In this document: piece after piece, positions 22,932 through 59,840 of the stretch
How the letters are laid out: every line of letters starts with the position of its first letter
Position numbering within the stretch: position 1 is the stretch's first letter
NCBI RefSeq assembly: GCF_002934265.1
Contig: NZ_PTIX01000012.1
Coordinates: 62,001-126,000, forward strand
From: Actinokineospora auranticolor
Lineage (GTDB): Bacteria; Actinomycetota; Actinomycetes; Mycobacteriales; Pseudonocardiaceae
Length of the DNA: 64,000 nt
Reading direction: 5' to 3'
Position numbers and translations under genes: made by a program
Notes under the pieces: generated by a model
Database searches by the model: none
Told to the model about the DNA's origin: nothing
The model's input: the letters and a program-made list of their open reading frames with translations, nothing else

Positions 22932-23007
<76 letters not shown>

Positions 23008-25283: not shown

Positions 25284-25289
25284 GGTTAG

Positions 25290-25540: not shown

Positions 25541-25586
25541 GCCATGTTCAGGCCCTGCCCGGTAAGCGGCAGGACCTGAACATGGC
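25541..25586. terminator. Terminator after the integrase gene
   Basis: A 19-bp inverted repeat with one mismatch (25541-25559 with 25568-25586) and an 8-base loop lies 18 bp beyond the integrase stop. It closes the long leftward operon and separates it from the rightward cargo. Confidence 0.75.
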
Positions 25587-25604
25587 CGCACAAAGCTAAC
25601 TTAA

Positions 25605-26783: not shown

Positions 26784-26997
26784 GGCACTCCTCAGCTTCC
26801 TTGATGAGCAATTGGACGTAGTCGTTGAGCGCGGCGGCAGGAATGCGGCGCGACTTGCCTTGGGTAACCGTCCGGAGACGTCCGGAGCGGATCTGTTCGT
26901 ACAGGGCGGTTCTGCCGATGGAGAGCAGCCGCATCGCGTCGGCGACGGTGTAGAGGTGCCTAAGTGGAACGACAGTGGGAGTGAACTCCGCGGTCAC
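26767..26997 (-). CDS. xis: Excisionase / helix-turn-helix (MerR-like) protein
   Basis: This 76-residue protein starts at a GTG preceded by AAGGGG at suitable spacing. The winged-helix DNA-binding signature is LYTVADAMRLLSIGRTALYE, followed by IRSGRLRTVTQGKSRRIP, the Xis/excisionase domain of actinomycete elements. It directs the integrase towards excision. It overlaps the 5' end of the integrase gene in a different frame, a common xis-int arrangement. It lies downstream of the replication genes in the same operon. Confidence 0.85.
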   Translation of the reverse strand: MTAEFTPTVVPLRHLYTVADAMRLLSIGRTALYEQIRSGRLRTVTQGKSRRIPAAALNDYVQLLIKEAEECHDQAA

Positions 26998-27085
26998 GGT
27001 CAAGCCCCTTGAGATGGTGGTGGCCGGTGGGCTGACGTCGCATGGCGATCCCTTCCAGGGCAGGGGGTGACTGCGCGATTTCGCA

Positions 27086-27150
27086 GGTGTCACCCGGGGT
27101 TTCTGCTGATCAGGGGAGTGGCAGTGACACGGGTGACAGGGGTGACACAG
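27086..27150. repeat. GTGACA-type iterated repeats at the end of the ATPase gene
   Basis: Three tandem 9-mers (27124-27132, 27133-27141, 27142-27150) each start GTGACA. A palindromic GGTGTCACC lies at 27086-27094. They span the last codons of the ATPase gene and the gap before xis. The same 9-mer family occurs in three copies near attR (39477-39503). They are possible iterons or integrase/Xis arm sites. Confidence 0.45.
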
Positions 27151-29031: not shown

Positions 29032-29064
29032 GTCGTGCGCTCCTGTGTGGATGATCGGGGGTGA

Positions 29065-29316
29065 CTACCGGCGGCGATCACGGCGGACACGCGTCCAGGC
29101 GTTGTGGACTCGGCGGCCCACGCGGAGCCGGTATCCGCTGCCGCTGCACAAGCGGCAGGGGCGGAACGCGCGGATGAGCGGGGCGCGGTGGCGACCGGCG
29201 CCCTTGCAGCGGCGGCAGCGTTTGAAGGGCCAGATCGCGCACGTTGCGGCGTAACCAAGCGTGAACAGCGAGGCCAGGGTCAACGGATTGATCAGGAGTG
29301 CGGCGAGGGTGCTCAC
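29065..29316 (-). CDS. Small membrane-anchored CxxC zinc-finger-like protein
   Basis: This 83-residue protein starts at GTG behind AGGAG. One transmembrane helix (LASLFTLGYAATCAIW) precedes two cysteine knuckles, CRRCKGAGR and CRLCSGSGY, the CxxCxGxGx repeat of DnaJ-like zinc fingers, and a highly basic C-terminus. Proteins of this design are common in actinomycete integrative elements between the translocase and replication genes. The role is unknown; the tail could bind DNA at the membrane during transfer. Confidence 0.75.
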   Translation of the reverse strand: MSTLAALLINPLTLASLFTLGYAATCAIWPFKRCRRCKGAGRHRAPLIRAFRPCRLCSGSGYRLRVGRRVHNAWTRVRRDRRR

Positions 29317-29355
29317 AGGAGGTCTCCTGGCTGATTTTGGGTGCGCGAGACCTGC

Positions 29356-29480
29356 GCCTCTAGGCGCTAGGACGCTGATCAGGGGTGTTGCAGTCGTCTA
29401 GAGGGGGCTCTAGGTCTAGAGGGGTCGGGATCTAGACCTAGAGCCGCGGTCGCGGGGCCATGACGGCGACCTCTAGCTAC
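29356..29480. repeat. CTAG-rich inverted-repeat cluster, candidate transfer or replication locus
   Basis: The interval between the FtsK/TraB-like and zinc-finger genes holds a perfect 14-bp inverted repeat (29407-29420 with 29431-29444, 10-base spacer). CTAG occurs eight times between 29360 and 29476, a tetranucleotide rare in such genomes. Conjugative actinomycete plasmids carry the cis-acting transfer locus clt beside the translocase gene, with short repeats bound by the translocase. The position fits; function is inferred. Confidence 0.5.
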
Positions 29481-31635: not shown

Positions 31636-32438
31636 CGGCCCTCCTCGTCTCGCATCAGGTGTGTCAACGCAGCAGCGCATCCGAGGACGACCACGGGCAG
31701 GCAGGACACGGGGGTGGTGATCTGCCATGGGGCTGAGGTCATCCCGGCAGCGGTCATCAAGTGGTACGCGACCTGACCGCAGGCACCCAGCACGAGCGCG
31801 CCGATCGCCGAGTTCCGGGCGAACTTGCGAGCCCGATCGGACCTGGATGCGGACAGCCACACCCGGAGGGCGAAGGCGGCGTACGCCTCAACACCGAGCG
31901 GCAGGGTGATCGCCGAATCGATCGTGAACTCATCGGCGATGCCGGGCAGCAGGGCGATCTCACCGAACCCGGTGAGCTTGCCCAGCCCCACCCAACCGCC
32001 CCAGATGGCGACGAACGCGCCTGCGGCGATCAGCAACAGCGCCCAAGAGTGCGCGCGCCATCCGACCTCCGAACGCTCGGAGCGCGTCGGAGCGTCTGGC
32101 GTCGGCTCCGGGTCTGCGGGGGCGCTGACCTTGGTAGAAGAGGTGCCCGCGCCGCTCTCCTCGATGACTTCGGAAGTGATCTCCGGCCCCGGGTTCACGG
32201 CGTCGGTCTCGGTGGGCGCGGCGATCTCATTCGCGTCCTCCGGGCCGTCGTCGACGACCGGGTTGGCGGGGTCGAACCCGGACGCCTTGACCGTGTCGAG
32301 CACGGCGGACGCCTTCGGCGCACCCACCTTGAATGTTTTGATGACCCGGTTGCGTGACGGCCACTCCCCCAAGTCCGCGGCAAGGTCGCGGACCTGGTCG
32401 GCGAGGACATCCAGCGGGGTCGGGTAGGCGCTGGTCAT
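31632..32438 (-). CDS. SpdB-like protein: winged helix plus DUF2637 membrane domain
   Basis: This 268-residue protein begins at ATG with GGGGGAG upstream. The N-terminal 60 residues form a helix-turn-helix-like unit (GEWPSRNRVIKTFKVGAPKA). An acidic, Thr/Pro-rich linker and four transmembrane helices of DUF2637 type follow, from AHSWALLLIAAGAFVAIWGG to a last helix containing LPVVVLGCAAALTHLM. Spd proteins mediate intramycelial spread of conjugative DNA after transfer. It is coupled on both sides: its start overlaps a micro-gene stop and its stop overlaps the translocase start. Confidence 0.85.
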   Translation of the reverse strand: MTSAYPTPLDVLADQVRDLAADLGEWPSRNRVIKTFKVGAPKASAVLDTVKASGFDPANPVVDDGPEDANEIAAPTETDAVNPGPEITSEVIEESGAGTSSTKVSAPADPEPTPDAPTRSERSEVGWRAHSWALLLIAAGAFVAIWGGWVGLGKLTGFGEIALLPGIADEFTIDSAITLPLGVEAYAAFALRVWLSASRSDRARKFARNSAIGALVLGACGQVAYHLMTAAGMTSAPWQITTPVSCLPVVVLGCAAALTHLMRDEEGR

Positions 32439-32599
32439 CGGTACTCCCCCGTCGTCGAGCGGCGGGAGCGGGGAAGGCTCGCCATGCAGGTGGATAGCAT
32501 CGAGTCCCCACTGCCCTCGTGGTTGTTGGGTGCTCCGGACCGGCGGGCGTTCTTGGCGGAGTGGCCGCCGGTCCGGATGTTGAGCAGGCAGGCGGTCAT
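32435..32599 (-). CDS. 54-residue protein coupled in the transfer operon
   Basis: The ATG overlaps the stop of the RRQRL gene and the TGA overlaps the SpdB ATG, so the frame is bounded by 4-bp overlaps at both ends, as in its neighbours. The product is polar and basic (MTACLLNIRTGGHSAKNARR at the start, SRRSTTGEYR at the end). No family is recognised. The double overlap is the main evidence that it is translated; small coupled transfer proteins are usual in these operons. Confidence 0.55.
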   Translation of the reverse strand: MTACLLNIRTGGHSAKNARRSGAPNNHEGSGDSMLSTCMASLPRSRRSTTGEYR

Positions 32600-32988
32600 C
32601 ACGCGGCCTCACCGCCGCTCGTGCGGTCGCAGTCCCAGCAGCGACGCCCGTTGAACTTCGGCAGCCGGTAGGACGCGGTCCGTCCGCACTCCGTGCAGGT
32701 GCGCAGCACCTGATTGGCCTTCCACAACGAGTAGAGCTGCGCCGTGGTCGCGCCCGGGGACGGCTTGGCGGTGTCGAGCCGGTACAGCGCGGCCCAGGAC
32801 TTGCCGCGGCGCCACTTGAGCTGCGCCACCCAGTCCTGACCACCGGGGCAGAGCCCGGCGTCCCGAAGTTGCCGCCTGGTCACGAGCCCTGCCGGAGCAC
32901 TGCGGTAGCCGAACGTCGGCACGCCGTCGTCCATGCGGCCCGGCCAGCTCTGGCCGTTCCACGGCAAGGTGACCACCTGGGCGGTCAT
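32599..32988 (-). CDS. RRQRL-motif zinc-binding protein
   Basis: This 129-residue protein starts at ATG 32988, overlapping the preceding stop. It contains VTRRQLRDAGLCPGGQDWVA, the RRQ(R)L motif of a family confined to actinomycete mobile elements, and a C-terminal zinc finger with CTECGRTASY and CWDCDR (two CxxC pairs). A basic patch (LKWRRGKSWAALYRLDTAKP) lies between them. It probably binds DNA or RNA in transfer or replication, but no function is established. A longer upstream frame is an arginine-rich shadow of the next gene. Confidence 0.85.
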   Translation of the reverse strand: MTAQVVTLPWNGQSWPGRMDDGVPTFGYRSAPAGLVTRRQLRDAGLCPGGQDWVAQLKWRRGKSWAALYRLDTAKPSPGATTAQLYSLWKANQVLRTCTECGRTASYRLPKFNGRRCWDCDRTSGGEAA

Positions 32989-33254
32989 CGGGAGCCCCCC
33001 GGCCCCAGCTCGCCACGGGGACGGCGTTGGACCGGCTTGCGCGCGGGCTTGTCGTCCGTCCTCTCCGCCGTCGCGGTGACCGGGCCGGACTCGGCAACGC
33101 GCGCCTCGACGTAGACGCGAACACCGAACCCGCCGCGGTTGGGGTACTGGCGGCCGTTGCTGGCGGTCTCGATCCCGGCCGCGTTGAGGACGGCCAGGAG
33201 GCAGCCGATGTCCTCCGGCTCGCCGAGTAGCCGCAGACCCACGGTCCCGCTCAC
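32985..33254 (-). CDS. Small conserved-type element protein of unknown function
   Basis: This 89-residue protein starts at the GTG overlapping the preceding gene's stop. Residues 1-55 alternate beta and alpha segments (GTVGLRLLGEPEDIGCLLAV, then FGVRVYVEARVAE); the tail is basic and Pro/Arg-rich. No catalytic motif is visible. It is coupled at both ends, so it belongs to the transfer operon. Confidence 0.7.
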   Translation of the reverse strand: MSGTVGLRLLGEPEDIGCLLAVLNAAGIETASNGRQYPNRGGFGVRVYVEARVAESGPVTATAERTDDKPARKPVQRRPRGELGPGGSR

Positions 33255-33475
33255 GCGGCCTCACCTCGCGGAACGACTGTGCGCACCGGCAGCGAGCGCA
33301 CCTGCGCGCCCATCATCCGGTTCATCTCGCGGCGCGCCCGCCGCGTGTCGATCTCGTGCATGGCGAACGGGGAGGTCGGCCGGTGGATCGGCTCCACGGT
33401 CGCGTCCATCTCCGCCAGCAACGCGTCAACGATCGGCCCCGTGAGGCCGTCGGGGTAGTGACTGGGGTGAGTCAC
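33251..33475 (-). CDS. First gene of the transfer/replication operon, unknown
   Basis: This 74-residue protein starts at GTG and is the promoter-proximal gene of the leftward operon, 51 bp from the GntR-regulator palindrome. It is mainly helical (GPIVDALLAEMDATVEPIHR), with a basic C-terminal half (DTRRARREMNRMMGAQ) that could contact nucleic acid. No family is recognised. Its stop overlaps the next GTG. Confidence 0.65.
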   Translation of the reverse strand: MTHPSHYPDGLTGPIVDALLAEMDATVEPIHRPTSPFAMHEIDTRRARREMNRMMGAQVRSLPVRTVVPRGEAA

Positions 33476-33525
33476 TTCGTACCTCGCTCTGGTCTCGCAC
33501 CCTCCGACGTGGTGACCAGCGAAAG

Positions 33526-33559
33526 CTAACAGTTGTTTGGTCAGCGGGTCAACTGTTAG
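33526..33559. promoter_or_regulatory. Divergent operator palindrome of the element
   Basis: CTAACAGTTG (33526-33535) and CAACTGTTAG (33550-33559) form a perfect 10-bp inverted repeat with a 14-base spacer. It lies between the leftward transfer operon and the rightward GntR-kinase gene. TTGGTCAG/CTGACCAG words recur nearby. This is the expected place for the KorSA-type GntR operator that represses transfer and its own gene. Confidence 0.65.
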
Positions 33560-33662
33560 ATGACAAATTCAGGTCAGATCGCTTTGACCAGGGGAGACGT
33601 GGCGAGATGCTGTTAGGCAACTGGTACGCTCACCTGACCAGCAACGCACGTTTGGAGCCCTC

Positions 33663-34514
33663 ATGGCAGGCGAACCCCCTCGCCTCTCCCGTTCCGAGTC
33701 CCTGCACCAGCAACTCGCCCGCAACATCCGCAACGACATCGAGTCAGGGCGCCTGCGAGACGGGCAGCCCTTGCCGTCCACCCGGGATCTGGCGAAGCAG
33801 TGGCAGGTCAGCGTCTTCACGATCAACGAAGCGATGAAGCTGCTCATCGATGAAGGGCTGGTCGACAGCAGGCCGCGGGCCGGTCGGATCGTCACGGCCC
33901 CGGATCAGGCCAAGCGTGTCGAGGTGCGGACCAGCCGCCCCAAGGTGCTGCTGATCGGCGGCTACGCGGGCAGTGGGAAGACCGAACTTGGCCGCATTCT
34001 GGCCCGGGAAACCGGGTGGCCGATCCTGGACAAGGACACCCTGACCAGGCCCGTTGTCGAGGCCGCGCTTGAGTTCATCGGCTGCTCACCGAACGACCGG
34101 GAGTCGGAGAAGTACCTCACGGCCATCCGCCCGCGCGAGTACGAGGCCCTGCGCAGCGCCGTGATGGAGAACGTCCAGTGCGGCAACAGCGCGATCGTGA
34201 CCGCTCCGTTCATCCGGGAACTGCGTGACCAAGCCTGGATCGACCGGACCCAAGCCACCTTCACCGCCGCAGACGCCGACGTCACCGTTGTGTGGGTCCA
34301 CTGCGACATCGACACGATGCTGACCTACGTCCGCCACCGCGGTGCCGCCCGAGACGCCTCCAAACTCGACAACTGGACGACCTACGCCGCGTCCATCGAC
34401 ATCGACTTCCGCCCCCCGATCGACCACATCGTCATCGACAACAGCGCCACCGGCGCTCCCCTCCAGACGCAGGCCCGCGAACTCATCGCCACGATCCTGG
34501 GAGCTGACACGTGA
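33663..34514 (+). CDS. GntR-type regulator fused to a P-loop kinase-like domain
   Basis: This 283-residue protein has an N-terminal GntR winged helix (RNIRNDIESGRLRDGQPLPS, then TRDLAKQWQVSVFTINEAMK). The C-terminal nucleotide-binding domain begins at residue 94, with P-loop GGYAGSGKTELG (GYAGSGKT at 100-107). Later segments include LDKDTLTRPV and VVWVHCDIDTMLTYVRHR, as in zeta-toxin/AAA_33 and gluconate-kinase-like proteins. The fusion suggests repression of transfer genes gated by nucleotide or substrate binding. It is placed as the KorSA-like master regulator of the element, and overlaps the dehydrogenase gene by GTGA. Confidence 0.85.
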   Translation: MAGEPPRLSRSESLHQQLARNIRNDIESGRLRDGQPLPSTRDLAKQWQVSVFTINEAMKLLIDEGLVDSRPRAGRIVTAPDQAKRVEVRTSRPKVLLIGGYAGSGKTELGRILARETGWPILDKDTLTRPVVEAALEFIGCSPNDRESEKYLTAIRPREYEALRSAVMENVQCGNSAIVTAPFIRELRDQAWIDRTQATFTAADADVTVVWVHCDIDTMLTYVRHRGAARDASKLDNWTTYAASIDIDFRPPIDHIVIDNSATGAPLQTQARELIATILGADT

Positions 34515-35422
34515 CCCCACCCGTACGCGTCCTCGTGAGTTGCGAGGAAGACGACCAGGTCGGTCACGACCTCCTCTCCCAGACCCCCGGCCTGGAAGTC
34601 ATCCCCTACGACCCCAACTCCCCCGACCTGGACTCCCACCAGGCGTCGGCCCACGTCCTCATCCCGCCCTACCGCAGCAGCCACCGCCCCATCCGCCTAC
34701 TGCCACTACTCCCCAACCTCCGCATGGTGCAACTCCTGTCAGCTGGCACCGACGAATGGGCACCCCACGTCCCTTACGGCATCACCCTGTCCAACGCCCA
34801 CGGCGCCCACGCAGGCCCGGTCTCCGAGTGGATTCTCTCCGCCATCCTGACCCAGTACCGCCAATGGCCCGCCCTGGTCAGATTCCAAGACCAAGCCATC
34901 TGGGCACATCGCAAGTTCCACGCAGACACCCTCGCCGGAACACGCGTCCTCATCATCGGCGCAGGCAGCATCGGCATGGCCACCGCCCGCCGCCTCAAAG
35001 CCTTCGAGGCCGTCCCCACCCTCGTCGCCCGAACAGCCCGGGACGGCGTCCACGCCACCACCGACCTACCCGCCCTGATCCCGGGCCACCAGATCGTCGT
35101 GCTCACGGCACCCCTGACAGAGGCCACGCGTGGCCTGGTGAACGCAGAGTTCCTGGCCACCATGAACACCGGCGCCCTGCTGGTCAACGCCGCGCGCGGC
35201 CAAATCGTCGATACGACGGCCCTCGTACACGAACTCCAGCAAGAACGCCTAACAGCCGCCCTAGACGTCGTGGACCCCGAACCGCTTCCATCTGGTCATC
35301 CACTGTGGTCGTGCCCCGGAGTCCTAATTAGCCCTCACTCAGCCCGAACAGTACCTAGAACAAATGAGCTTTGCTACTCCGCCGCAAACCGACAAATCTG
35401 CGACAGGGCACTATCCGGCTGA
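34511..35422 (+). CDS. D-isomer-specific 2-hydroxyacid dehydrogenase
   Basis: This 303-residue protein starts at the GTG overlapping the regulator stop. The nucleotide-binding Rossmann domain has VLIIGAGSIGMATARRL. Catalytic Arg, Glu and His appear in NAARGQIVD, DPEPLPSGHPLWS and ISPHSAR, in the usual order. The enzyme would reduce a 2-keto acid to a D-hydroxy acid, or the reverse, with NAD(P)H; the substrate is unknown. Its coupling to the element's regulator is odd for a metabolic gene and hints that its substrate may be the ligand of the kinase-like domain. Confidence 0.88.
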   Translation: MTPPVRVLVSCEEDDQVGHDLLSQTPGLEVIPYDPNSPDLDSHQASAHVLIPPYRSSHRPIRLLPLLPNLRMVQLLSAGTDEWAPHVPYGITLSNAHGAHAGPVSEWILSAILTQYRQWPALVRFQDQAIWAHRKFHADTLAGTRVLIIGAGSIGMATARRLKAFEAVPTLVARTARDGVHATTDLPALIPGHQIVVLTAPLTEATRGLVNAEFLATMNTGALLVNAARGQIVDTTALVHELQQERLTAALDVVDPEPLPSGHPLWSCPGVLISPHSARTVPRTNELCYSAANRQICDRALSG

Positions 35423-35433
35423 TTTCCTTGCAC

Positions 35434-36639
35434 CTAGGCAACGCCGTAGTGAGCCGCAAGACCAGCAAATTGGCTGCCCTGTCGCCGGGTGGCGTCGTCG
35501 ACCAGCTTTCGCATGACCGAACGCCCGAGAGGCTGACGTCTGGCCCAATCCGGAGATAGTTCACGAGCCTGGCCCAGGTAGCCGAGCGCAAGCCGCGGCT
35601 TCTTCAGCTTGACTGCGGCGCTGGCTAGATGGAGGCGGTGCCCCGATTCCCAGAATCGGGGCACAACGCCTTGGGCATCCGGAAGTCGCCGTGCGAGACT
35701 GAGACCTCGCTCGGGATCACCGTGTCGGATGGTGTGATCGACGCGTTGGAGTGCGGCTACGCGTGGGCCAAAGATCGCGACTTCGCTGGCTGAATCAACG
35801 CCAGCCCGTATGGCCGCGGCGGCAGCGACTGCCAAGAGATCTTCGGCGCGCTGTGCGCTACCTGACCGGTGTGCGGCGTTGGCGGCATTGAACAGCAGAT
35901 TGCCGAACACACCAGCCCGCGTCGGGTCTCGGTCAAGCATCCTGGGTTCGATCCGCTCTGCCGCGACTACCGCGACGCGTTCCGCTTCGGCAGTACGGCC
36001 TTGACGAATCAGAGTCCAGACCAGGTACCGTGTCGATACCGCCGTGTCGACCTCCGGCGTATCGGATTGACGTGCGACATCGATCGCCTTCTCCGCAGCC
36101 GTCCAAGCCAGATCGTCCAATCCCAGCCGGCCAGCGATCCCGGCCCCCAGGCGGTACCCGACGGAGATCAGCCGACACGCTGTTGCCTTTTCGGCTCCGG
36201 AGGACGCGTGTATCAGCCGCCGAGCGTCGGTAAGCAGCGCAGGCAGCCTCTGTAGAAGCTCATCGTGCCTGCCATCGACGTAGGCGCGCCATGCCTTGTG
36301 CGCCTCAACGGCAAGCGCACGAGCACACACAACCTCATCTGTCTCGGTGAACTCGGTCAAGCCTGGCACGTCACCGGTCGGGGTGATCGCCCGGCGCAGA
36401 CTGGTTATGTCCGCATCGGAGCCATTCAGCGTGGCCAACCGCCCTTGCAAAGCGTCAGAACTGACGCCGAGTGCCGCGGCTAGCTTGTCAATGGTGCCCG
36501 GGCGGGTCGTCTGCCGCTCGCCGCGTTCGATGCGGCCAACCGTGTCCACACTTACGTCGGCCGCGACGGACAACGCTTCCTGCGAGAGATCGTTCGCCTT
36601 GCGAAGACGGGACAGGTTGGTCGCCAACGCGTCAGACAC
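35434..36639 (-). CDS. XRE-family regulator with TPR-like helical C-terminus
   Basis: This 401-residue protein has an N-terminal helix-turn-helix (LRKANDLSQEALSVAADVSV, then DTVGRIERGERQTTRP). A long helical repeat domain (AHKAWRAYVDGRHDELLQRL and onwards) follows, typical of actinobacterial XRE regulators with peptide or small-molecule sensing TPRs. It lies 15 bp downstream of the NUDIX gene on the same strand, a common NUDIX-XRE pairing in this phylum. It is convergent with the dehydrogenase gene. It may control its own operon or the element's cargo. Confidence 0.85.
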   Translation of the reverse strand: MSDALATNLSRLRKANDLSQEALSVAADVSVDTVGRIERGERQTTRPGTIDKLAAALGVSSDALQGRLATLNGSDADITSLRRAITPTGDVPGLTEFTETDEVVCARALAVEAHKAWRAYVDGRHDELLQRLPALLTDARRLIHASSGAEKATACRLISVGYRLGAGIAGRLGLDDLAWTAAEKAIDVARQSDTPEVDTAVSTRYLVWTLIRQGRTAEAERVAVVAAERIEPRMLDRDPTRAGVFGNLLFNAANAAHRSGSAQRAEDLLAVAAAAAIRAGVDSASEVAIFGPRVAALQRVDHTIRHGDPERGLSLARRLPDAQGVVPRFWESGHRLHLASAAVKLKKPRLALGYLGQARELSPDWARRQPLGRSVMRKLVDDATRRQGSQFAGLAAHYGVA

Positions 36640-36654
36640 AGCCGCCTCCCAGAC

Positions 36655-37146
36655 CTAGAGCTGATACTCCGAGAGTACTGGTTGTCCAGCGTCGCAAAGC
36701 ACCGTCCGACCTCGCTCGACAGCCGACTGCGCCGCGACGATGCGCCGATGCAGGGCAGGCGTGACCAGCTTGGACGCTTCGTCGACTGTGTACAGCCCGA
36801 TGGAGCGAATCTCGGGGTCGACGACAGGCATGCGCCGGACCTCATCCTCGGTCACGAGACCGCCATCGAACACGAACGCCAGACCCTCGGGCATGACGCC
36901 TTGCGTAGGGATGTGGTCGACCACCAGCAGCGCACCTTGACGGCGAACGATGCCGACCTCCTCCTGAGCTTCCCGGCCTGCGGTCGCCCACGGCGCCTCC
37001 TCGGCGTCTGCCGTACCACCGGGGATCTCCCAATCATCCTTGTACGTCGGCTCGACCAGCAGCACCCGTCCCTGCTGGTCGTGAAACAGCACTCCAGCAG
37101 CCACTCTTTTCAAGGGCAGGGACCGGGCGTACTCGTCGTACGGCAT
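36655..37146 (-). CDS. NUDIX hydrolase
   Basis: This 163-residue protein starts at ATG 37146; a 34-codon upstream extension is arginine-rich and unlikely. The NUDIX box reads GGTADAEEAPWATAGREAQEEVGI (43-66), fully consistent with Gx5Ex7REUxEExGU. The preceding strand GRVLLVEPTYKDDWEIP is typical of house-cleaning or nucleotide-sugar NUDIX enzymes; the substrate cannot be read from sequence. It is the first gene of a two-gene unit with the XRE regulator. Confidence 0.85.
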   Translation of the reverse strand: MPYDEYARSLPLKRVAAGVLFHDQQGRVLLVEPTYKDDWEIPGGTADAEEAPWATAGREAQEEVGIVRRQGALLVVDHIPTQGVMPEGLAFVFDGGLVTEDEVRRMPVVDPEIRSIGLYTVDEASKLVTPALHRRIVAAQSAVERGRTVLCDAGQPVLSEYQL

Positions 37147-37325
37147 GAGTTCCACAAGCTTGGAGGCTACCTGTCGCGGCCGTGACGCCTGTTCCCTGCT
37201 TCCGAGGCAGGGAACAGGCGGTCGTCTCGACTGAAACCCGGCTCGCAAGCTGTGTTCTCCCAGGTCAGCGCGGCCGATGCTGTGAAGACACCCCCGACAG
37301 ACACGCTGCCAATGGCGGAGACAAC

Positions 37326-37598
37326 ATGGACTCGATAGTCACGAAGACCGCGTTGTGCTTTGGCCCTGCGATCGTCCTGATTCTCGCACTGGAGTTAATC
37401 GGAAGAGGTCTGGTTGCGCGAGCGAGGAAAAGCTTCCATGCCGCCGTCGAACGAGAGCGGGAGAGAGCCCGGGCCGAAGCACCTACGCAATTCATCCACC
37501 ACGTCTCACTTCCGGTGAACTGCACACCACTCAAACCTCTCCCCCTACCCCCGTCTCGGCACCGAATAGTTCTGCGCGACCACCAGGGAAGCCGATGA
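37326..37598 (+). CDS. Small membrane-anchored protein, coupled to the next gene
   Basis: This 90-residue protein starts at ATG behind GGAG. An N-terminal transmembrane helix (LCFGPAIVLILALELIGRGL) is followed by a highly charged helix (RKSFHAAVERERERARAEA) and a Pro-rich tail. The ATGA overlap with the next gene indicates co-translation. Family unknown. It is cargo on the right side of the element. Confidence 0.6.
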   Translation: MDSIVTKTALCFGPAIVLILALELIGRGLVARARKSFHAAVERERERARAEAPTQFIHHVSLPVNCTPLKPLPLPPSRHRIVLRDHQGSR

Positions 37599-37960
37599 CA
37601 ACCTCTGCGGCTATCACCAAAGAGCAAGCCATAGCTCGCTATCCAGCACTCGCCGCTCTTGCGGAAATTACGGAAGCTGGATGGACCTTTCGACCGATCT
37701 TCAATGAAGACAGTGAATTCTACGCCCTCGCCGGAACGCGGCACGTGCGACAGTACACCGACGCGTTGTGGATCTTCGATGAAAACAGCTTTCTAGCACT
37801 TCGCATCCTGGAAGACGAGATCGACTGCGGCCCGGTCTGGAAGTACGACAAAGGCAGTATTGCCGACGCCGTGTCAGCGTTATTGACTCTGCCCGAACCG
37901 GGTGAGCGTCTGGCGCCAAGCCTGGTGTTGCGGTCAAGCGGGCTGTGGACTCCAGGGTGA
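37595..37960 (+). CDS. Unknown small protein with a broken relative near attL
   Basis: This 121-residue cytoplasmic protein starts at the ATG overlapping the preceding stop. Recognisable blocks are KEQAIARYPALAALAEITEA, GTRHVRQYTDALWIFDE, LRILEDEIDCGPVWKYDKGS and LTLPEPGERLAPSLVLRSSG. The last three blocks recur, frameshifted, at 23106-23295 on the opposite strand near the other end of the element. No catalytic motif is evident. The family looks specific to mobile elements; its role is unknown. Confidence 0.7.
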   Translation: MTTSAAITKEQAIARYPALAALAEITEAGWTFRPIFNEDSEFYALAGTRHVRQYTDALWIFDENSFLALRILEDEIDCGPVWKYDKGSIADAVSALLTLPEPGERLAPSLVLRSSGLWTPG

Positions 37961-38407
37961 TCGAAATCCTCAAGCGGTACAAACGGTAGTGTTCCTGAGG
38001 CAACCACCGTTCGGCAAGTTTGAGAAAATGAGACTCCGGCGGGCATGGGTCACCACAGCCCACCGGCATGTCGCCGGTCGTTAAACCGCAGGGCTATCGC
38101 GCTGCAAGCGATGGTCAGGTTCATGCGGCAAGGAAACCGAAGGCTCCGGCCTTCTGGGCGTGTTGACTTCACCTGCACACGGATGAATTCAGACACGAGG
38201 GGCGCCTCCGCTCTGTTGCCCTCCTGCGACCGGCGACCCACAAGCATGTTCAGAAGTTGACTCCAGCGTCGCACACAAAATGGGCTCGGACTCGCTCTCT
38301 GATCCCGTCTGCGGCATGTGCACGATCGCAGGCCAGTATGACCGGCCGGTCGCCATCCCCTCAATTGGCGATCGGCCGGTCTTCGTTTCGATCGAAGGTA
38401 GTGCCTA
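37961..38407. other. Gene-free interval with a promoter-proximal hairpin
   Basis: No frame here is convincing on either strand. Only the strong inverted repeat at 38340-38381 stands out. The interval probably contains the promoter of the next two-gene unit. Confidence 0.5.
38340..38381. promoter_or_regulatory. Strong hairpin 26 bp upstream of a cargo gene
   Basis: 16-bp arms (38340-38355 and 38366-38381) pair with a single G-T wobble around a 10-base loop, followed by TTCGTTTCG. It could terminate upstream transcription or act as a leader structure or operator for the gene that starts at 38408. Confidence 0.55.
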
Positions 38408-38821
38408 GTGCCTTTCTCTGATGAGTTCCACACGAAGGTGATCGCCGCGTGGCACGCACGCAAGTGGATCGAGTGCGATAGCGGACCTGGCCACTTTCAA
38501 TTCCTGTACCCGCGTTCGTTCGGCGTGCTGTTGAGCGGGGAGCATCGCGTGTGGTTGGCCGATATCGGAGTTGAGACGTTGGACTGCGTCATTCGGCAGG
38601 GCCGGGGCGGTCGATTGACCGCTGAACTCAACCTCGCCGGGGTGACCAACGGGTGCGACTTGCACCGCAGAAGACAGATCACCAACCTGACCGTACGGAA
38701 GTACTCCCCGATGCGACTGTCATGGTACGAGCGGGAAGCGCGGGAGATCGACAGGGTTTCGCTTTCCCAGTGCGTCATGTTCGGCACCTGCCGAGAGGCG
38801 GTCTCGGTCGATGCCGAATGA
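38408..38821 (+). CDS. Unknown protein overlapping an XRE regulator gene
   Basis: This 137-residue protein starts at GTG. It is rich in aromatic residues and Arg (VIAAWHARKWIECDSGPGHF; LTVRKYSPMRLSWYERE), appears globular and soluble, and has several isolated cysteines. No family is recognised. Its 3' end overlaps the next gene by 11 bp, suggesting a co-expressed pair with that XRE protein, possibly a toxin-antitoxin-like or regulator-partner arrangement, though no toxin fold is visible. Confidence 0.55.
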   Translation: MPFSDEFHTKVIAAWHARKWIECDSGPGHFQFLYPRSFGVLLSGEHRVWLADIGVETLDCVIRQGRGGRLTAELNLAGVTNGCDLHRRRQITNLTVRKYSPMRLSWYEREAREIDRVSLSQCVMFGTCREAVSVDAE

Positions 38822-39332
38822 GGCGCCGCGCCGGCCGATAGAGAACGCCGGGTTGGCGAAGGCACTAGGTTCGCTGTTGCGCACACGGCGCGAAGATCTC
38901 GGCTGGTCGCGGGGCACCTTGGTCGAGAAGATAGCCGACATGTTCCCGCGCACCGATGAGCTCCACGGGCAGACAATCGCAACATACGAACTGGGCATCC
39001 GGCGCATCACTTTGGATCGTTTCGTAGTAATATGCACTGCACTCGATCTTGATTCTGTCGAGACGTTGGCGCGCGGCTTGAGGCTTGCAGACTTCTTTTC
39101 ATCGGATTCTTCTATCGCAATTTCCCTTGCAGCACTGGCCGCGTCAACCGACAAGAAGCTCCGCCCACTTTCTCAGTGGGCCACTGTGCAGTTGATTTCC
39201 AGCCCGGAAACCCAAATGGTAGAGCTGACGGTCGAGATGATTGAGAGCTTTGCGAAGATCTGCGCGGTCGATATCGAGAAACTCCGCTCTTTGCTGGATG
39301 CCGCGATGAAGAGCTACGCCAAGCGGCAGTGA
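38811..39332 (+). CDS. XRE-family DNA-binding protein
   Basis: This 173-residue protein has an N-terminal helix-turn-helix: ALGSLLRTRREDLGWSRGTL, then TIATYELGIRRITLDRFVVI, with the typical E-x-G-x-R-x recognition region. The C-terminal part is helical (MVELTVEMIESFAKICAVDI) and may dimerise. The start lies inside the preceding gene, so the two are coupled. As the last gene before attR, it could regulate the element's right-end cargo. It has moderately lower GC than the chromosome. Confidence 0.75.
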   Translation: MPNEAPRRPIENAGLAKALGSLLRTRREDLGWSRGTLVEKIADMFPRTDELHGQTIATYELGIRRITLDRFVVICTALDLDSVETLARGLRLADFFSSDSSIAISLAALAASTDKKLRPLSQWATVQLISSPETQMVELTVEMIESFAKICAVDIEKLRSLLDAAMKSYAKRQ

Positions 39333-39638
39333 TGCCGCAGCCCTGACCGGAAACTGGTCACGCGGCGACGTCGCATGACCTCTCAGTCGGCAGTTGAACC
39401 GTCAGCTCCGCGGCGAAGCAAGGTCGCGCCCGCAGTGAACATCTGTTCGATCCGCAGTCGGCCGCGCGGCCCGAGATGTCACCCCTGTCACCCCTGTCAC
39501 CTCCGATCGCGCGATGCCTTCTGCGTGCCAGACTGCGTGACAACGCAGGCGGTTCGGAGCGGACGAATACGAACGACGGCGAACAGTGACTTGGCGCTGA
39601 CCTGCACAGACAGGCGGTCAGGCGGGACACGACATGGC
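39333..39638. other. Gene-free attR-proximal region
   Basis: About 300 bases between the last cargo gene and attR hold no convincing gene. The region carries the tandem TGTCACCCC repeats and probably belongs to the attP arm DNA. Confidence 0.5.
39477..39503. repeat. Three tandem TGTCACC repeats near attR
   Basis: Units 39477-39485 and 39486-39494 are identical (TGTCACCCC), and 39495-39503 differs at one base. They lie 136 bp from attR, and the same word ends the tRNA/att core (CTGTCACCCC). They are candidate integrase or excisionase arm-type binding sites. Confidence 0.5.
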
Positions 39639-39682
<44 letters not shown>

Positions 39683-54149: not shown

Positions 54150-54163
54150 CGAGCACTCCCCAG

Positions 54164-54195
54164 CGGGCCCCGGGACGTCGAAGTCCCGGGGCCCG
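54164..54195. terminator. Terminator after leuA
   Basis: A perfect 13-bp stem (54164-54176 with 54183-54195) with a 6-base loop, followed by TTGTG, lies 14 bp after the leuA stop. Confidence 0.85.
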
Positions 54196-54416
54196 TTGTG
54201 CATTAACCAACATTTCCGGGAATCGTTGAAGATCCACTAAGGACAAATCCTGGACAACGGGTCGGTCACCACGCCGCTTCGTTAACACCTCGCTGCGGCT
54301 GCGCGATCGAGCAGGTGGCGACGGCGCACGGGCATTCACGCACTACGAGCACTCGTAGTGGAAAAGAATGGCCGCCGCAGACTCGCCACGGGCATTCTCG
54401 CGGCGAGGTGGTGCAC

Positions 54417-55163
54417 ATGGGCGAGCACGGCGTGAGCCGCGTGTGGCGGCGCGGGCGCAACTTCCTCGGCAAACCGGTCGAGGACTTCTGGAACCGCACC
54501 GGCGACGCGGGCGAGGCCGTCGTCGTGGAGCGGGTGTCGAACGCGCTGCGGGTGGCCGCGACCCGCGGGGACGTGTGGCACCCGACGGTCGTGGTGCGGC
54601 TGAGCGCGGGCGACTACGACCTGCTGGAGGGCAGCTACGACGAGGTGCGCGGCAGGCTCAGCGGGCTGATCTGCGGCCGCCTCGACTACCGGGGCGTCTC
54701 GGTCGGCGTGGTGCGGATCGTGCTGGAACCCGTGGGCCTCAGCGGAAGCGAGTCGTTCACGATCCTCACGGCTGGCGACCGGGACGCGGTGTTCACCCGC
54801 GCCGAACCGCCGCCGCAGCCCGACCCCGCACCGCGGCAGCAGTCGTTCCCCCGGCAGCGACCGCGCCCCGACGGCAGGCCGACCCACGCCCTGCGCTCCT
54901 TCTCGGACGGTTCGCGGATCCCGCTCGGCGGGGTGCCGGTCACCCTCGGCCGGGCGCAGGGCGCGCCGGGGCGGCTCGACGACCCGAAGGCCAGCCGCAG
55001 GCACTGCGAGTTGGTCGTGCGCGCGGACGGGCGGCTCACGTGCACCGACCACTCGTCCAACGGGACCAAGGTGGACGGTCAGCGAATAACCGGAACCGTG
55101 ACGCTTTCCGTGGGACAGGTACTTCGCGCGGGCCGCACGGAGTGGGTTGTCGAACATTGGTGA
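54417..55163 (+). CDS. FhaA-like FHA-domain protein
   Basis: This 248-residue protein starts at ATG 54417 (an adjacent GTG is possible). The N-terminal half resembles the DUF3662 domain of FhaA: RRGRNFLGKPVEDFWNRTGD, then PTVVVRLSAGDYDLLEGSYD. A Pro/Arg linker precedes a C-terminal FHA domain with VTLGRAQG, ASRRHCELVV and SSNGTKVDGQRI (phosphothreonine-binding Arg, Ser-x-x-His and Asn-Gly-Thr). FHA domains bind phosphothreonine on kinases and substrates. It opens the kinase/phosphatase module and is probably a phospho-dependent adaptor. Confidence 0.85.
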   Translation: MGEHGVSRVWRRGRNFLGKPVEDFWNRTGDAGEAVVVERVSNALRVAATRGDVWHPTVVVRLSAGDYDLLEGSYDEVRGRLSGLICGRLDYRGVSVGVVRIVLEPVGLSGSESFTILTAGDRDAVFTRAEPPPQPDPAPRQQSFPRQRPRPDGRPTHALRSFSDGSRIPLGGVPVTLGRAQGAPGRLDDPKASRRHCELVVRADGRLTCTDHSSNGTKVDGQRITGTVTLSVGQVLRAGRTEWVVEHW

Positions 55164-55306
55164 GCGACCGGTCTCGAAATACCGCGCTACCGATGTCGAA
55201 GTACGAACACTCGTAATCGCCCACCTGGTAGCGGATACCGAATTCCGTGCCACGGTGTGTCCGTCACCCGAGAAGAAGCCCGCCGACAACCAGGGAGTTG
55301 AGCGAA

Positions 55307-57751
55307 ATGCCGCTGCGCCGGTCGGGCGACTTCCTCTACTGGTGCGCGGGCGCCGACCCGACGGTGGTCGACCACGCGCACCTGGGCCGCCCGGAACGGG
55401 TGCGCTACGGCAGCATCGGCATGTCCGTGCTGCTCACCGGCACCGCGGGCGGGCTGTCCATGCTCATGGTGCTGGGCATGGTCAGCCACGGGTTCCGGCT
55501 CTGGCACCTGCCCGCCGCGCTGTTCTGGGCGCTGTTCATCTTCAACACCGACCGCTGGCTGGTCAGCTCGATCAACTACAACGACCCGAAGCCCGAGGGC
55601 GCCACGTCCAAGCGCGACACGCGCGGGGACTTGATCAAGCGCCGGTTGGGCAGGCTCTGCACGGTCCTGGCGCGCATCGCGATGGGCGTGCTGATCGCCT
55701 TCGCGGTGTCCGAACCGGTACTGCTGACGATGTTCGAGAGCGAGATCACCCACCAGCTCAGCATCACGAACCGGCAGAACGAAGAGGCGACCAAACAGGC
55801 CATCGAGGCCAAGTACGCGGGTGACTTCGCGACCATCGAGGCCAAGTACAAGGCCACGCAGGACGCGGTGGACAAGGCCGCCGCCGAGCTCAAGACCGCC
55901 GAAGCGGAGCTGACCAAGGAGAACGCGGACGGCAACAACACCGGGCAGGGCTGCTCGCTGAAACGGGGCAGCCCCTGCAAGGCGTACCAGGAAGCGGTCG
56001 AGCTCAAGCAGGCCGAGCTGCGGAACGCGCAGGCCAACCGCGACACCGCGCGCGAGACCTACACGCGGGACACGGCGGCGACCCGGGCCAAGGTCGACGG
56101 CGAGATCGGCGCCAAGAAAGCGGATGACAACCCCGACGGCCTGCTCGCCCGGCAGAAGGCGCTGGCCGACCTGACCGCGGCCAACCCCGAGTTGGGCACC
56201 CGGGTGTGGCTGATCCGCGGGGTGTTCCTGCTGGTCGACCTGCTGCCGATCCTGCTCAAGACCTTCGCCTCGACCAGCATGTACGAGCGTTTCGTGCGCA
56301 CCGCCGCCGCCGACCTGCTCGCCGGGAAGCAGCGCGCCCGCGCAACCGCCGACGCCGCCGACACCCGGCGCGCGGAGGCCGACCGCGTGATCGACCGGGC
56401 GCGCATCGACGCCTTCCAGGACGTCCGACTCGAAGAGGTCGCCGCGAGCCGCGACCTGGACCTGTCCGGGATCAAGCTCGACCTCGACCAGCAGCGGATC
56501 CAGCTCGAACTGGACCACGAACTCGAAGTGCTCCGGATGCGCTGGCGGCACCGGGAACGGGTGGACGCCGAGGGGCTGCTGTTCGAGGGCACCGAGGTCC
56601 ACCCCGGCAAGCACGACCCGGCCCTGCACGACGTCACCGAGCCGGGCGATGACGGCGACCCGTCGGGCGGTGTCCAGGGCGACCACCCGACGGACCCGCT
56701 CGGCGGCCCGTCCGGCGGTGCGGGGAAGCGGCCGAAGCCGGACCCGCGCAGCGTGCTCAACGACCGCTGGGTCATCGTCGGCCCGCTGCCGGACTCCGAC
56801 CAGGCCGGGTTCAGCGACCTGAAGCTGGCCTACGACCTGCACGAGCCCGAGCGCGAGGTGGTCGTGAAGCGGGCGCTGACCATCGGCGCCAACCGGCGGG
56901 CGGCCGCGTACTCGATCAAGAAGGACCAGCACTTCCACGCCAAGGTGCGCAGCAGGCACGTGGCACCGCTGCTCGACCTGGGCGAGCACGAGCTGTTCGG
57001 CCCGTTCGTGGTCACCCCGCGCTACCCGACCACCCTGGTCAAGCGGCTGCGCGACGAGCCGCTGACGCTGGAGTGGTCGCTGCGGATCATGGAGCAGGTG
57101 CTCGGCGGGCTGACCGACCTGTGGCGCACGGCGAACTGCGTGCACCTCGACATCAAGCCCGCCAACATCGCCCTCGACGACAACGACGACGTGAAGCTGA
57201 TCGACTTCGGGCTGGCCAAGGCAGTGCGCGGCACCGACGACCTGGTCAGCGGCGAGGAGTCCAAGTTCACCCGCTGGTACGCGCCGCTGGAGCAGATCCT
57301 GCGCGCGCCGAACTGGGTGTCCAGCGCCTGCGACGTGCGCGCGGTCGGCGCGGTCTGGTACGAGATGCTGACCGGTCTCCGGCCGCTGCACCGGGAGGCG
57401 CGGGCCACGGGCACGAGCCCGCTGCGGATCACCACGGAGCAGTTCGTCGAGCTGCTGCGCACCACCGACCCGATCCGCCCCAAGCGGCTCTACCCCGGCC
57501 TGCCCGCCTCGGTGGACTCGCTGGTCATGCGGTGGCTCAGCCGCGACCCGGTCGACCGGGTCAGCGGGCCGCTCGGCGACCGCTCGCACGCCGAACTGGC
57601 CCGCGAGGCGCTGGCCGCGGTGCGCGCGGACGTCGAGGCGCGCGGGCAGCTGTTCGACCTGATCCCGGGCGTGCTCGGCGCCCAGCGGGTCGGCTCGTCC
57701 ACCGACGTGTACCGGCGCGGCGCCGACGAGCAGCAGACCCGTCAGCGCTAG
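55307..57751 (+). CDS. DUF4407-type membrane protein fused to a Ser/Thr protein kinase
   Basis: This 814-residue protein starts at ATG behind GGGAG. Three hydrophobic helices (about 35-60, 67-87, 118-142) and a fourth (about 300-322) frame a long soluble coiled-coil with heptad-rich KAAAELKTAEAELTKENA, the DUF4407 layout. A second coiled-coil and acidic linker lead to a kinase domain (about 485-750): VVVKRA with Lys521, HLDIKPAN with catalytic Asp615 and IDFGLAK with Asp633. The glycine-rich loop is degenerate (VGPLPDSDQAGFSDL). It may transduce a membrane or envelope signal into phosphorylation of FHA partners encoded on either side. Confidence 0.88.
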   Translation: MPLRRSGDFLYWCAGADPTVVDHAHLGRPERVRYGSIGMSVLLTGTAGGLSMLMVLGMVSHGFRLWHLPAALFWALFIFNTDRWLVSSINYNDPKPEGATSKRDTRGDLIKRRLGRLCTVLARIAMGVLIAFAVSEPVLLTMFESEITHQLSITNRQNEEATKQAIEAKYAGDFATIEAKYKATQDAVDKAAAELKTAEAELTKENADGNNTGQGCSLKRGSPCKAYQEAVELKQAELRNAQANRDTARETYTRDTAATRAKVDGEIGAKKADDNPDGLLARQKALADLTAANPELGTRVWLIRGVFLLVDLLPILLKTFASTSMYERFVRTAAADLLAGKQRARATADAADTRRAEADRVIDRARIDAFQDVRLEEVAASRDLDLSGIKLDLDQQRIQLELDHELEVLRMRWRHRERVDAEGLLFEGTEVHPGKHDPALHDVTEPGDDGDPSGGVQGDHPTDPLGGPSGGAGKRPKPDPRSVLNDRWVIVGPLPDSDQAGFSDLKLAYDLHEPEREVVVKRALTIGANRRAAAYSIKKDQHFHAKVRSRHVAPLLDLGEHELFGPFVVTPRYPTTLVKRLRDEPLTLEWSLRIMEQVLGGLTDLWRTANCVHLDIKPANIALDDNDDVKLIDFGLAKAVRGTDDLVSGEESKFTRWYAPLEQILRAPNWVSSACDVRAVGAVWYEMLTGLRPLHREARATGTSPLRITTEQFVELLRTTDPIRPKRLYPGLPASVDSLVMRWLSRDPVDRVSGPLGDRSHAELAREALAAVRADVEARGQLFDLIPGVLGAQRVGSSTDVYRRGADEQQTRQR

Positions 57752-57770
57752 ATCGCGAGAGGAGAGCCGG

Positions 57771-59123
57771 ATGGACCTGCTGTCTTTGGTTGTGGGCTTC
57801 GCCCTCGGTGTCGGTGCCGCCGTGGCGGTCCACCTGGTCCGGGCGCGCGTGACCCGCCCACGCCCGGTTCCGCCGCCGCGCGTCGACGAGGAGCTGGACG
57901 TCCCCGAGGTCGTGCGGCCCAAGGAGTCGGGGCCCGCGGCGGAGTCGGTACCCGTGGCTCCGGTCCCCGCGGAGTCGTTGCCCGCCAAGGAGTTGGCGTC
58001 CGCGGAGTTGGAGCCCGCCACCGAGTTGGCGCCCACGGTCACCGAGCAGCTGCCGGTGGAGACCACCGAAGTCATCCCCGCGGACCCGGTGACCGAGGCG
58101 CTGGCGGTAACGGAGTTCACCCCGGGCACGGGCCTGGCCTGGCTGCGCGGCGACGGCGACTTCCTGATCAGCCGGGCGACGACGCTGGTCGGCCGCAGCG
58201 CCACCTGCGACCTGGTGGTGGACGAGGACTTGGTCAGCCGCAGGCACTTCCGGGTGGTGCGCGACGAGCGGGGCTGGTGGCTGGAGTCGTTCGACACGCC
58301 CAACGGGACCTACCTCAACGACCGGCCGATCCGGCCGAACACCCCGGTCCGCCTCCAGGGCGGCGACCGGATCGGCCTGGGCGACACCGAACTCACCCTG
58401 ATCCTGCCGACCACCGACACCCCGGCGGAGTCCGGGATCGCGTTGTCGTTCAACAGCTTCGGCGCCAGCATCACCGGCGGCAGGCGGTCGAACCAGGACG
58501 TCTGCCACTGGGACAACACCATGGTGGCGGTCGCCGACGGGGTGGGCGGGCGGCCCGCGGGCGGGCTGGCGGCGAAGCTGGCCGTGGATGGCATCCGGGA
58601 CGCGGGCCAAGACCAGGACCTGCTCGCCACGGCCCGGCGGGTCAACGAGGTCGTGCGCGCGACGGGCGAGGAGAACGTCCTGGCGACGGGCCTCGCGACC
58701 ACCCTGGACGTCGCCGTGCTGCGGCCCGGCCCGGAGGGGTACCTGGTGGCGGGTCTGCACATCGGCGACGGCACGGTGATCGTCCAACTCGGCGCGGAAC
58801 TGGAGGACCTGGTCGAGGCCCACTCGTCGACCGCGGTCGGCTCGGGCGCGGGCGGGAAGCTGCTGCGCGCGGTCGGTCTGGACGAGACGATCCGCCCGGA
58901 CCGGTGGGACCGACCCGCGCGGCTCGGCCAGCGGTACCTGCTGGCCAGCGACGGGCTGGTGAACGCCCTGGGGCACCAGCCGTTGCGGCGCGCGCTGGTC
59001 CGGCTGCGGGCGGACGAGCCGCGCGAGTGCGTGCGCAGGCTGCTGGAGCTGGCGGACCGCGCGGGGGCGGCGGACAACGTGACGGTGGTGGTCGCCGATG
59101 TGACTCCCACCGAGGACCGGTGA
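57771..59123 (+). CDS. FHA-PP2C phosphatase, membrane-anchored
   Basis: This 450-residue protein has an N-terminal transmembrane helix (LLSLVVGFALGVGAAVAVHL), an acidic, Pro/Glu-rich linker and an FHA domain near 120-205 (LVGRSATCDLVVDEDLVSRR; NGTYLNDR). A PP2C Ser/Thr phosphatase domain follows, with metal ligands Asp243 (SNQD), Asp256 (ADGVGG), Asp394 (SDGL) and Asp435 (DNVT). It would reverse the neighbouring kinase, with the FHA domain targeting phosphorylated substrates. It starts 20 bp after the kinase gene and ends 6 bp before the next gene. Confidence 0.92.
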   Translation: MDLLSLVVGFALGVGAAVAVHLVRARVTRPRPVPPPRVDEELDVPEVVRPKESGPAAESVPVAPVPAESLPAKELASAELEPATELAPTVTEQLPVETTEVIPADPVTEALAVTEFTPGTGLAWLRGDGDFLISRATTLVGRSATCDLVVDEDLVSRRHFRVVRDERGWWLESFDTPNGTYLNDRPIRPNTPVRLQGGDRIGLGDTELTLILPTTDTPAESGIALSFNSFGASITGGRRSNQDVCHWDNTMVAVADGVGGRPAGGLAAKLAVDGIRDAGQDQDLLATARRVNEVVRATGEENVLATGLATTLDVAVLRPGPEGYLVAGLHIGDGTVIVQLGAELEDLVEAHSSTAVGSGAGGKLLRAVGLDETIRPDRWDRPARLGQRYLLASDGLVNALGHQPLRRALVRLRADEPRECVRRLLELADRAGAADNVTVVVADVTPTEDR

Positions 59124-59129
59124 TCGAGG

Positions 59130-59840
59130 TTGGCGACCCTGACCATCTTCACCGGCACCAGACCGCCGTGGCAGGTTCCGGTGGACACCGTGGTCTACCT
59201 GGACCGGTTGTACCTGACCGGTTTGCCTGGCGACCCGACCATCTCCCGGCAACCGCACGCCCCGAGCCTCTGCCACCGCGCCGGGGATTGGTGGCTGGAC
59301 AACTACTCGCAGGCGCACAACGCGTACGTGGCGGTGCACCCGCGCCACGAGCAAGGCCGGATCGTCGTGCCGCTGCGGTGTTCGGTGCGCCTTGGGGACG
59401 GGGATTCGGAGGTGTGGGTCTGGAGCCCGCAACACCGGTTGCGACTGCGGGTGGCAGGCTCGGCTTTCCTTTCGGCGCAACGGGAACAGGAGGACGATGT
59501 GTCCACAGAGGTGGGTGTGCCCGGAGCGCACGACCGCGTGACGGAACTGTGGAAGCGGGTGCCGTTCCACCGGGTGGTGCTCGCGGCGTACTACCGGCCG
59601 TACTTCGCGCCCGGCCTGGTCCGCCCGGCACCGCAGAACCGCGAACAGACCCGCCGGTGCGTCGGCCAACCGACCTGCACGCGGTTGGACAGGGCGTTGC
59701 GGGAGACCATGAACGCGATTTGGGGGGAGCAGGGGCACGCGGCGGAACTGCCCGAATACCTGATCAGCCAGCGGTTGTTGAACGCCACCGACCAGGGCCT
59801 CGTCCCCCACACCGACTGCGCCCACCGCCGCAGCCAGTGA
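59130..59840 (+). CDS. FHA-like protein ending the kinase module
   Basis: This 236-residue protein starts at TTG immediately after the phosphatase gene. The N-terminal half has PGDPTISRQPHAPSLCHRAG, then DWWLDNYSQAHNAYVAVHPR. The SR...HR and N-A-Y elements are arranged like a divergent FHA domain (NAY for NGT). The C-terminal half is helical (HDRVTELWKRVPFHRVVLAA), with several Cys and no known fold. It is most likely a module-specific substrate or adaptor. The start is uncertain because spacing from the ribosome-binding site is short. Confidence 0.65.
   Translation: MATLTIFTGTRPPWQVPVDTVVYLDRLYLTGLPGDPTISRQPHAPSLCHRAGDWWLDNYSQAHNAYVAVHPRHEQGRIVVPLRCSVRLGDGDSEVWVWSPQHRLRLRVAGSAFLSAQREQEDDVSTEVGVPGAHDRVTELWKRVPFHRVVLAAYYRPYFAPGLVRPAPQNREQTRRCVGQPTCTRLDRALRETMNAIWGEQGHAAELPEYLISQRLLNATDQGLVPHTDCAHRRSQ

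Follow-up and report, generated by a model that had tools for sequence, protein, structure and literature searches.

A putative phospho-signalling cassette built on a DUF4407-kinase fusion in Actinokineospora auranticolor

In the core pknA-pknB-pstP-fhaB-fhaA locus, a Hanks kinase, a PP2C phosphatase and FHA proteins are encoded together. PpkA, which belongs to type VI secretion, is a membrane kinase. The PpkA/PppA/Fha pathway comprises a Ser/Thr kinase, an adjacent phosphatase and an FHA reader, as described in the available parts of PMC3224232 and PMC3953482. The TerY-P triad, in the available part of PMC11090510, consists of a vWA protein, a PP2C and a Ser/Thr kinase fused to a zinc ribbon or OB fold, and the available part of PMC7159879 mentions actinobacterial kinase-PP2C-vWA groupings. 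Here we describe a four-gene locus of Actinokineospora auranticolor in which the kinase is fused to a DUF4407 domain. It lies at positions 54417-59840 (5.4 kb) of a 64,000-nucleotide (nt) stretch of contig NZ_PTIX01000012.1, referred to below as the window; coordinates without a prefix are window positions, and the four genes and their domains are on the forward strand. The initial annotation of this stretch had proposed a phospho-signalling module built on a DUF4407-kinase fusion, and Pfam, AlphaFold and the PknB-like fold of the kinase bore this out.

Judging from protein sequences and structural models, we hold it fairly probable (about 0.6) that the four genes make up a self-contained transmembrane circuit for Ser/Thr phospho-signalling, with an envelope-sensing kinase, its own phosphatase and phospho-readers. 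For this reading the domains, the topology model, the cysteine parity, the recurring partners and the private motif were computed; we infer the signal, the kinase activity, who binds what and the output. All four genes are real: g1 (54417..55163, 248 aa), g2 (55307..57751, the 814-aa DUF4407-kinase fusion), g3 (57771..59123, a protein with a transmembrane (TM) helix, FHA and PP2C) and g4 (59130..59840, 236 aa, an FHA fold with a helical C-terminal domain). The last three are closely spaced (19 nt between g2 and g3, 6 nt between g3 and g4).

The DUF4407 domain, which the initial annotation had placed in the N-terminal part of g2, spans residues 30-331 (55394..56299) by Pfam and AlphaFold. It matches PF14362 at 195.1 bits against a cut-off of 31.3, covering profile positions 10-294 of 297. 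An AlphaFold model of g2 built from 17 sequences (mean predicted local distance difference test 78, predicted template modelling score (pTM) 0.45) has helices at 28-60, 67-88 and 106-142, which we took as membrane helices. After these come a hairpin (144-273) of two long helices (144-207 and 223-273) and a fourth membrane helix (TM4, 294-321); a helix some 97 residues long (325-421) and then a disordered linker lead on to the kinase. Cys216 and Cys224 (55952..55978) sit at the tip of the coiled-coil hairpin, a low-confidence part of the model, and are a putative disulfide pair. We counted cysteines in 63 DUF4407 domains, non-redundant at 70% identity and drawn from 132 near-full-coverage domains in the fetched loci, with the TM3-TM4 loop placed by hydropathy. 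This loop contains no cysteine in 9/63, two in 41/63, four in 13/63 and an odd number in 0/63; in the remainder of the same domains the count is odd in 28/63. A loop count that is never odd is expected if the cysteines pair as disulfides in an oxidising environment, which most likely puts the hairpin outside the cytoplasm. The TM2-TM3 loop, as read from sequence, is positively charged, which agrees with an external hairpin and a cytoplasmic kinase. The 13 domains with four loop cysteines (L061 and others) have a second, separate cysteine pair in the hairpin loop, likely a second disulfide.

The kinase domain of g2 (residues 488-778, 56768..57640) scores above the Pfam Pkinase cut-off and has a kinase fold whose nearest known fold is PknB. 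It keeps the catalytic lysine (K521), the HxDxKxxN motif (HLDIKPAN at 613) and the DFG motif at 633, and its Gly loop is degenerate. It is not a PASTA kinase: the NF033483 score is 79.4 against 450 bits, and Pfam gave no PASTA match at E<=1. Nor did Pfam find a zinc ribbon or OB fold on it.

The membrane-anchored FHA-PP2C phosphatase predicted for g3 was confirmed, with a TM helix at 5-23, an FHA domain at 139-204 and a PP2C domain from about 232. The PP2C_2 match (3.9e-09, 36.8 against 24 bits) keeps the NQD, ADGVGG, GDG, SDG and ADN motifs. Relative to 10 genus orthologues the domain is about 13 residues short between the GD and SDG motifs, as it also is in the fusion loci L130 and L131. It is not a PstP/Stp1 equivalog (NF033484, 84 against 230 bits). 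The first gene, g1, has a C-terminal FHA domain (residues 175-238, Pfam 5e-13) with GR, SRRH and NGT motifs; no TM helix was found, and its N-terminal ~140 residues carry no assignment. The initial annotation had called it FhaA-like, and this we rejected. Pfam gave no FhaA_N (PF12401) match in g1 at E<=1, and the hhalign score against the N-terminus of the strain's own FhaA (11.2) was lower than those of at least 8 of 40 shuffles (best 23.5).

The divergent FHA-like protein g4 does have an FHA fold. Residues 1-111, which are those covered by the fold list, form an FHA beta sandwich by structure prediction and fold comparison, undetected by Pfam. This domain is without the SRxH histidine and the NG motif of g1 and g3, and R26, S39 and R40 are invariant in 11/11 homologues. 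Residues 133-235 form a helical C-terminal domain, which has no Pfam family in 11/11 homologues and no solved-structure match at E<=1; it may resemble a winged helix. Homologues of g4 (44-50% identity) occur in 10/15 other genus genomes. In 10/10 they adjoin a short PP2C gene without FHA, elsewhere in the genome and with no DUF4407-kinase in the stretch. Three further matches in other genera are weak (E 3e-4 to 7e-4). Among plasmids we found no relatives of g4, and one weak DUF4407 match for g2 on a Rhodococcus plasmid.

Relatives were sought in three overlapping genome samples. PF14362 matched in 45/249 genomes of the family (1e-10), 28/35 of a second family (1e-20) and 35/207 of the class (1e-15). 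At least seven DUF4407-kinase fusions were found in two families (the window, L068, L069, L130, L131, L163 and L164), in at least 3/249, 4/35 and 2/207 genomes of the respective samples. These counts are lower bounds: the searches with the whole protein or its DUF4407 part, which cover two of the samples, were insensitive, scoring no more than 2 to 8 candidates for each genome, and the fetched loci were the ones checked. Two scans of genome contigs, one with g2 and one with an alignment, gave no relatives.

We compared the seven fusion loci with 31 non-fusion DUF4407 loci. In 5/7 fusion loci (4/6 outside the window) the fusion is preceded, in the same orientation, by an FHA gene, at distances of 143, 53 and 419 nt, with a 1-nt overlap, and at 1.4 kb in L164. 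The corresponding numbers for non-fusion loci are 0/30 over 9 kb and 0/8 among those fetched later. The association has a Fisher p of 4.8e-5, or 5.3e-4 for the four FHA genes within 0.5 kb, values that ignore relatedness. Of the five FHA partners, all but g1 carry a TM helix at the N-terminus; in the window it is g3 that has one. A PP2C gene follows in 3/7 fusion loci (the window, L130 and L131). Co-conservation of all four genes, which the initial annotation had made a test of its proposal, failed for the full set, which is absent downstream of leuA in 15/15 other genus genomes and is complete in none of the 6 other fusion loci; the combination of fusion, FHA-phosphatase and two further FHA proteins is found in the window only, among the seven. 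What stood were the pairs: FHA with fusion in 4/6 and fusion with PP2C in 2/6 of the other fusion loci, and PP2C with g4 in 10/10 genus loci that have a strong g4 match.

Coupling between DUF4407 and kinases is also found outside the fusions. Six more loci have a DUF4407 gene next to one for a canonical kinase. In 5/5 loci of another family (two genera) the DUF4407 open reading frame (ORF) overlaps the start of the kinase ORF; L126, which comes from the same genus as the window, has a kinase gene after DUF4407. Other kinases near non-fusion DUF4407 genes are on the opposite strand (L137, L143, L144) or further off (L078, L085, L087, L132), and we drew nothing from these. In a kinase tree of 17 sequences, 6/7 fusion kinases, on long branches, stand apart from L164 and from the canonical and split kinases, so the coupling probably arose more than once.

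In L163 (8392-12645), a 1417-aa ORF on the opposite strand, with one gene between it and the fusion, matches the kinase and FHA hidden Markov models (HMMs) and has a P-loop-like start by eye; it is possibly another signalling GTPase. In L032 (7900-13020), a fourth DUF4407 gene of one genome precedes the gene for a 1049-aa Tubulin_2 protein (Pfam 1.4e-53), which is another kind of DUF4407 setting.

A private palindromic motif precedes both g1 and g2. Upstream of g1 there is a 20-nt perfect inverted repeat, CACTACGAG-CA-CTCGTAGTG (54341..54360), which contains the first exact TACGARCACTCGTA site; the second exact site (55202..55215) is upstream of g2. The sites, both candidate operators, are 73 nt and 105 nt from their genes. 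No other exact copy exists in the 8.43-Mb assembly, where base composition would predict 0.02. One site genome-wide has a single mismatch. When up to two are allowed, there are 81 matches (35 lie inside a repeat array) and the reversed control gives 45, which is no enrichment. Such palindromes would let one regulator control both units. The motif does not occur in the 300 nt before the FHA genes of L068 and L069. We also considered g4 as the binder of the two palindromes and rejected it, as none of the 10 genus loci has TACGA-N4-TCGTA in the 300 nt before its PP2C-g4 pair. About 50 nt upstream of the PP2C gene in those loci (L020-L029) there is an inverted repeat of the GGGGGAG..CTCCCCC type, unlike the window palindrome, with 7-nt arms in 4/10 and imperfect look-alikes by eye in others. 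The repeat array mentioned above is CRISPR-like (G000:C11:232020-234396); by pattern scan it holds 35 two-mismatch copies of the 14-mer, spaced mostly 63-68 nt apart.

Taken as a circuit, the cassette might work as follows. DUF4407 would be the sensor, its membrane helices holding the coiled-coil hairpin outside the membrane with the tip closed by a disulfide. The hairpin would sense a change in the envelope, and the ~97-residue helix would transmit it inwards to the PknB-like kinase domain. Once switched on, the kinase, to judge from its fold and residues, would phosphorylate threonines on itself and its partners. The FHA domains of g1 and g3, given their motifs, would bind these phosphothreonines. 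The TM-FHA-PP2C order of g3 suggests that its FHA domain brings the phosphatase to the kinase, a negative feedback in which the signal is erased where it is made. With its degenerate FHA and helical domain, g4 may be a reader or effector that passes the signal on; this is the weakest step.

Several observations weigh against this circuit. Hydropathy gives three TM segments in g2 while AlphaFold suggests four, the pTM of the model is just 0.45, and 9/63 DUF4407 domains have no loop cysteines. In the kinase, Asp540 replaces the alpha-C glutamate (aligned with the glutamate of PknB and of the relatives) and HRD reads HLD, so activity is not certain. Among the relatives, HNDAHPRN in L164 and DWA in L163 indicate that some fusions may be inactive. 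By HMM, L130 and L131 have no FHA gene, and L068, L069, L163 and L164 have no PP2C gene (the PP2C HMM misses a Pfam-confirmed PP2C in L074, which is outside the fusion set). The FHA gene of L164 is separated from its fusion by another ORF. As for the statistics, L068/L069 and L130/L131 are close pairs, whose relatedness the Fisher test ignores; open-frame length partly guided the choice of loci; and the window, L068 and L069 supplied the training set of the FHA HMM, which found L163 and L164 without having been trained on them. A loose motif also flagged possible FHA ORFs near the non-fusion L073, L080 and L087, which the HMM did not support.

The likeliest alternative, though an improbable one, is that DUF4407 belongs to TerY (vWA)-PP2C-kinase systems and that the cassette derives from such TerY-P-type stress or defence signalling, with FHA proteins in place of the vWA protein and stress or phage defence as its output. 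Of the short loci scanned, 14/32 have a TerY-like vWA motif no more than ~1.5 kb from DUF4407. In L074, DUF4407 stands in a row with vWA, PP2C and a kinase-like protein whose Pkinase score (25.2 bits) falls short of the 31.7 cut-off. TerY-P triads are linked to defence systems in the available part of PMC11090510, and the cassette occupies a variable slot between leuA and the opp genes. By Pfam, however, none of the four genes encodes a vWA protein, their products contain neither a nuclease nor any other known effector domain, and g2 has neither of the TerY-P kinase fusion partners. A named defence system was rejected, as the PADLOC matches to the kinase look generic in our judgement.

That slot is variable in the genus. 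All 15 other sampled genus genomes have leuA, and in none of them is g1-g4 present downstream of it (E<=1e-8, in the stretches fetched). The opp genes follow leuA in 14/15 (with weak similarity in L121; none in L110), and the interval between them (L107-L121) ranges from <0.1 kb to ~7 kb, with different cargo in some. Because the four genes are absent in 15/15 and the interval varies in length, the cassette is an accessory insertion at a variable leuA-opp junction. No direct repeats of >=10 nt were found at both ends of the insertion. A GC-rich inverted repeat 3' of leuA (54161..54198), found by repeat search with 19-nt arms that are 89% complementary, is possibly the leuA terminator, in which case the module would be a unit separate from leuA; the T-tract scan did not call it, and a promoter scan of the locus gave no sigma-70-type match.

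Somewhat less likely again is that the kinase is a pseudokinase or poor enzyme and that the cassette serves mainly as a scaffold at the membrane, collecting FHA proteins that the core kinases have phosphorylated. The aspartate in place of the alpha-C glutamate, the HLD and the degenerate Gly loop fit this, as do the long branches of the fusion kinases, but the window kinase keeps its catalytic lysine, HxDxKxxN and DFG. HxDxKxxN is likewise kept in 5/6 fusion relatives (all except L164). At the DFG position four relatives have DWG, L163 has DWA and L164 has DFG. A phosphatase gene adjoins 3/7 fusions. Finally, that recently inserted, loosely associated genes were gathered in the slot by chance, with no dedicated pathway, is very improbable: their absence downstream of leuA in the other genus genomes and the lack of the full set elsewhere in the loci examined would fit, but FHA-fusion and fusion-PP2C pairs recur in other genera and another family, the g2-g3-g4 gaps are short, and g1 and g2 share an identical private motif.

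Elsewhere in the window, positions 22932-39682 hold an integrated element, which we take to be of the pSAM2 type. A tRNA-Pro gene (22932-23006) has its 3' part repeated exactly (44 nt) at 39639-39682. The element, lower in G+C in parts, encodes a phage integrase (25605-26783), a Prim-Pol (28138-29031), an FtsK-like protein (29473-31860, below the Pfam cut-off) and a GntR.

DUF4407 is, by its Pfam name, of unknown function, and it is present in 35/207 genomes sampled across the class. The kinase links (fusion and gene overlap) and the even-only loop cysteines give it a testable role as an extracytoplasmic Ser/Thr kinase sensor. A broader proposal, whose chances we put slightly below even, sees DUF4407 as a general family of envelope sensors: a coiled-coil mast, clipped by a disulfide and standing outside the membrane, that was recruited into Ser/Thr kinase circuits several times independently (fused to the kinase, with FHA and PP2C genes as partners; as a gene overlapping a canonical kinase; and beside TerY-type vWA), with the window cassette under private palindromic operators. 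With sensor, writer, eraser and readers within 5.4 kb, the predicted circuit would be a compact kinase-to-output path that could be rebuilt in a test tube.

The initial annotation had likened the set to the core locus with a different sensor, and the strain does have a separate core-type locus (G000:C6) with two FHA genes, one PP2C and two kinase ORFs. One FHA gene has FhaA_N (2.2e-39); the names fhaA, fhaB, pstP, pknA and pknB were inferred from gene order, and the last kinase ORF is cut by the end of the stretch. The module resembles the core locus in encoding kinase, PP2C and FHA together and in its kinase fold, but its sensor is a DUF4407 coiled coil without a PASTA match, its phosphatase has its own FHA, g1 has no detectable FhaA_N, and it is accessory in the genus. 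With the TerY-P triad it shares the pairing of kinase and PP2C, and DUF4407 is often near TerY-like vWA genes (the 14/32 short loci, and L074), but the module has no vWA protein, and the fusion partner of its kinase is DUF4407 instead of a zinc ribbon or OB fold. The likeness to the PpkA/PppA/Fha pathway is one of working only, and rests on the shared kinase, PP2C and FHA domains. Set against typical PF14362 proteins, most of which are non-fusion in the loci examined, g2 combines a near full-length match with a kinase. In the available parts of the open-access literature searched, we found no description of a DUF4407 sensor or of this gene combination, and DUF4407 appears there as a table entry. 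The kind of circuit is already known; the DUF4407 sensor is the new element.

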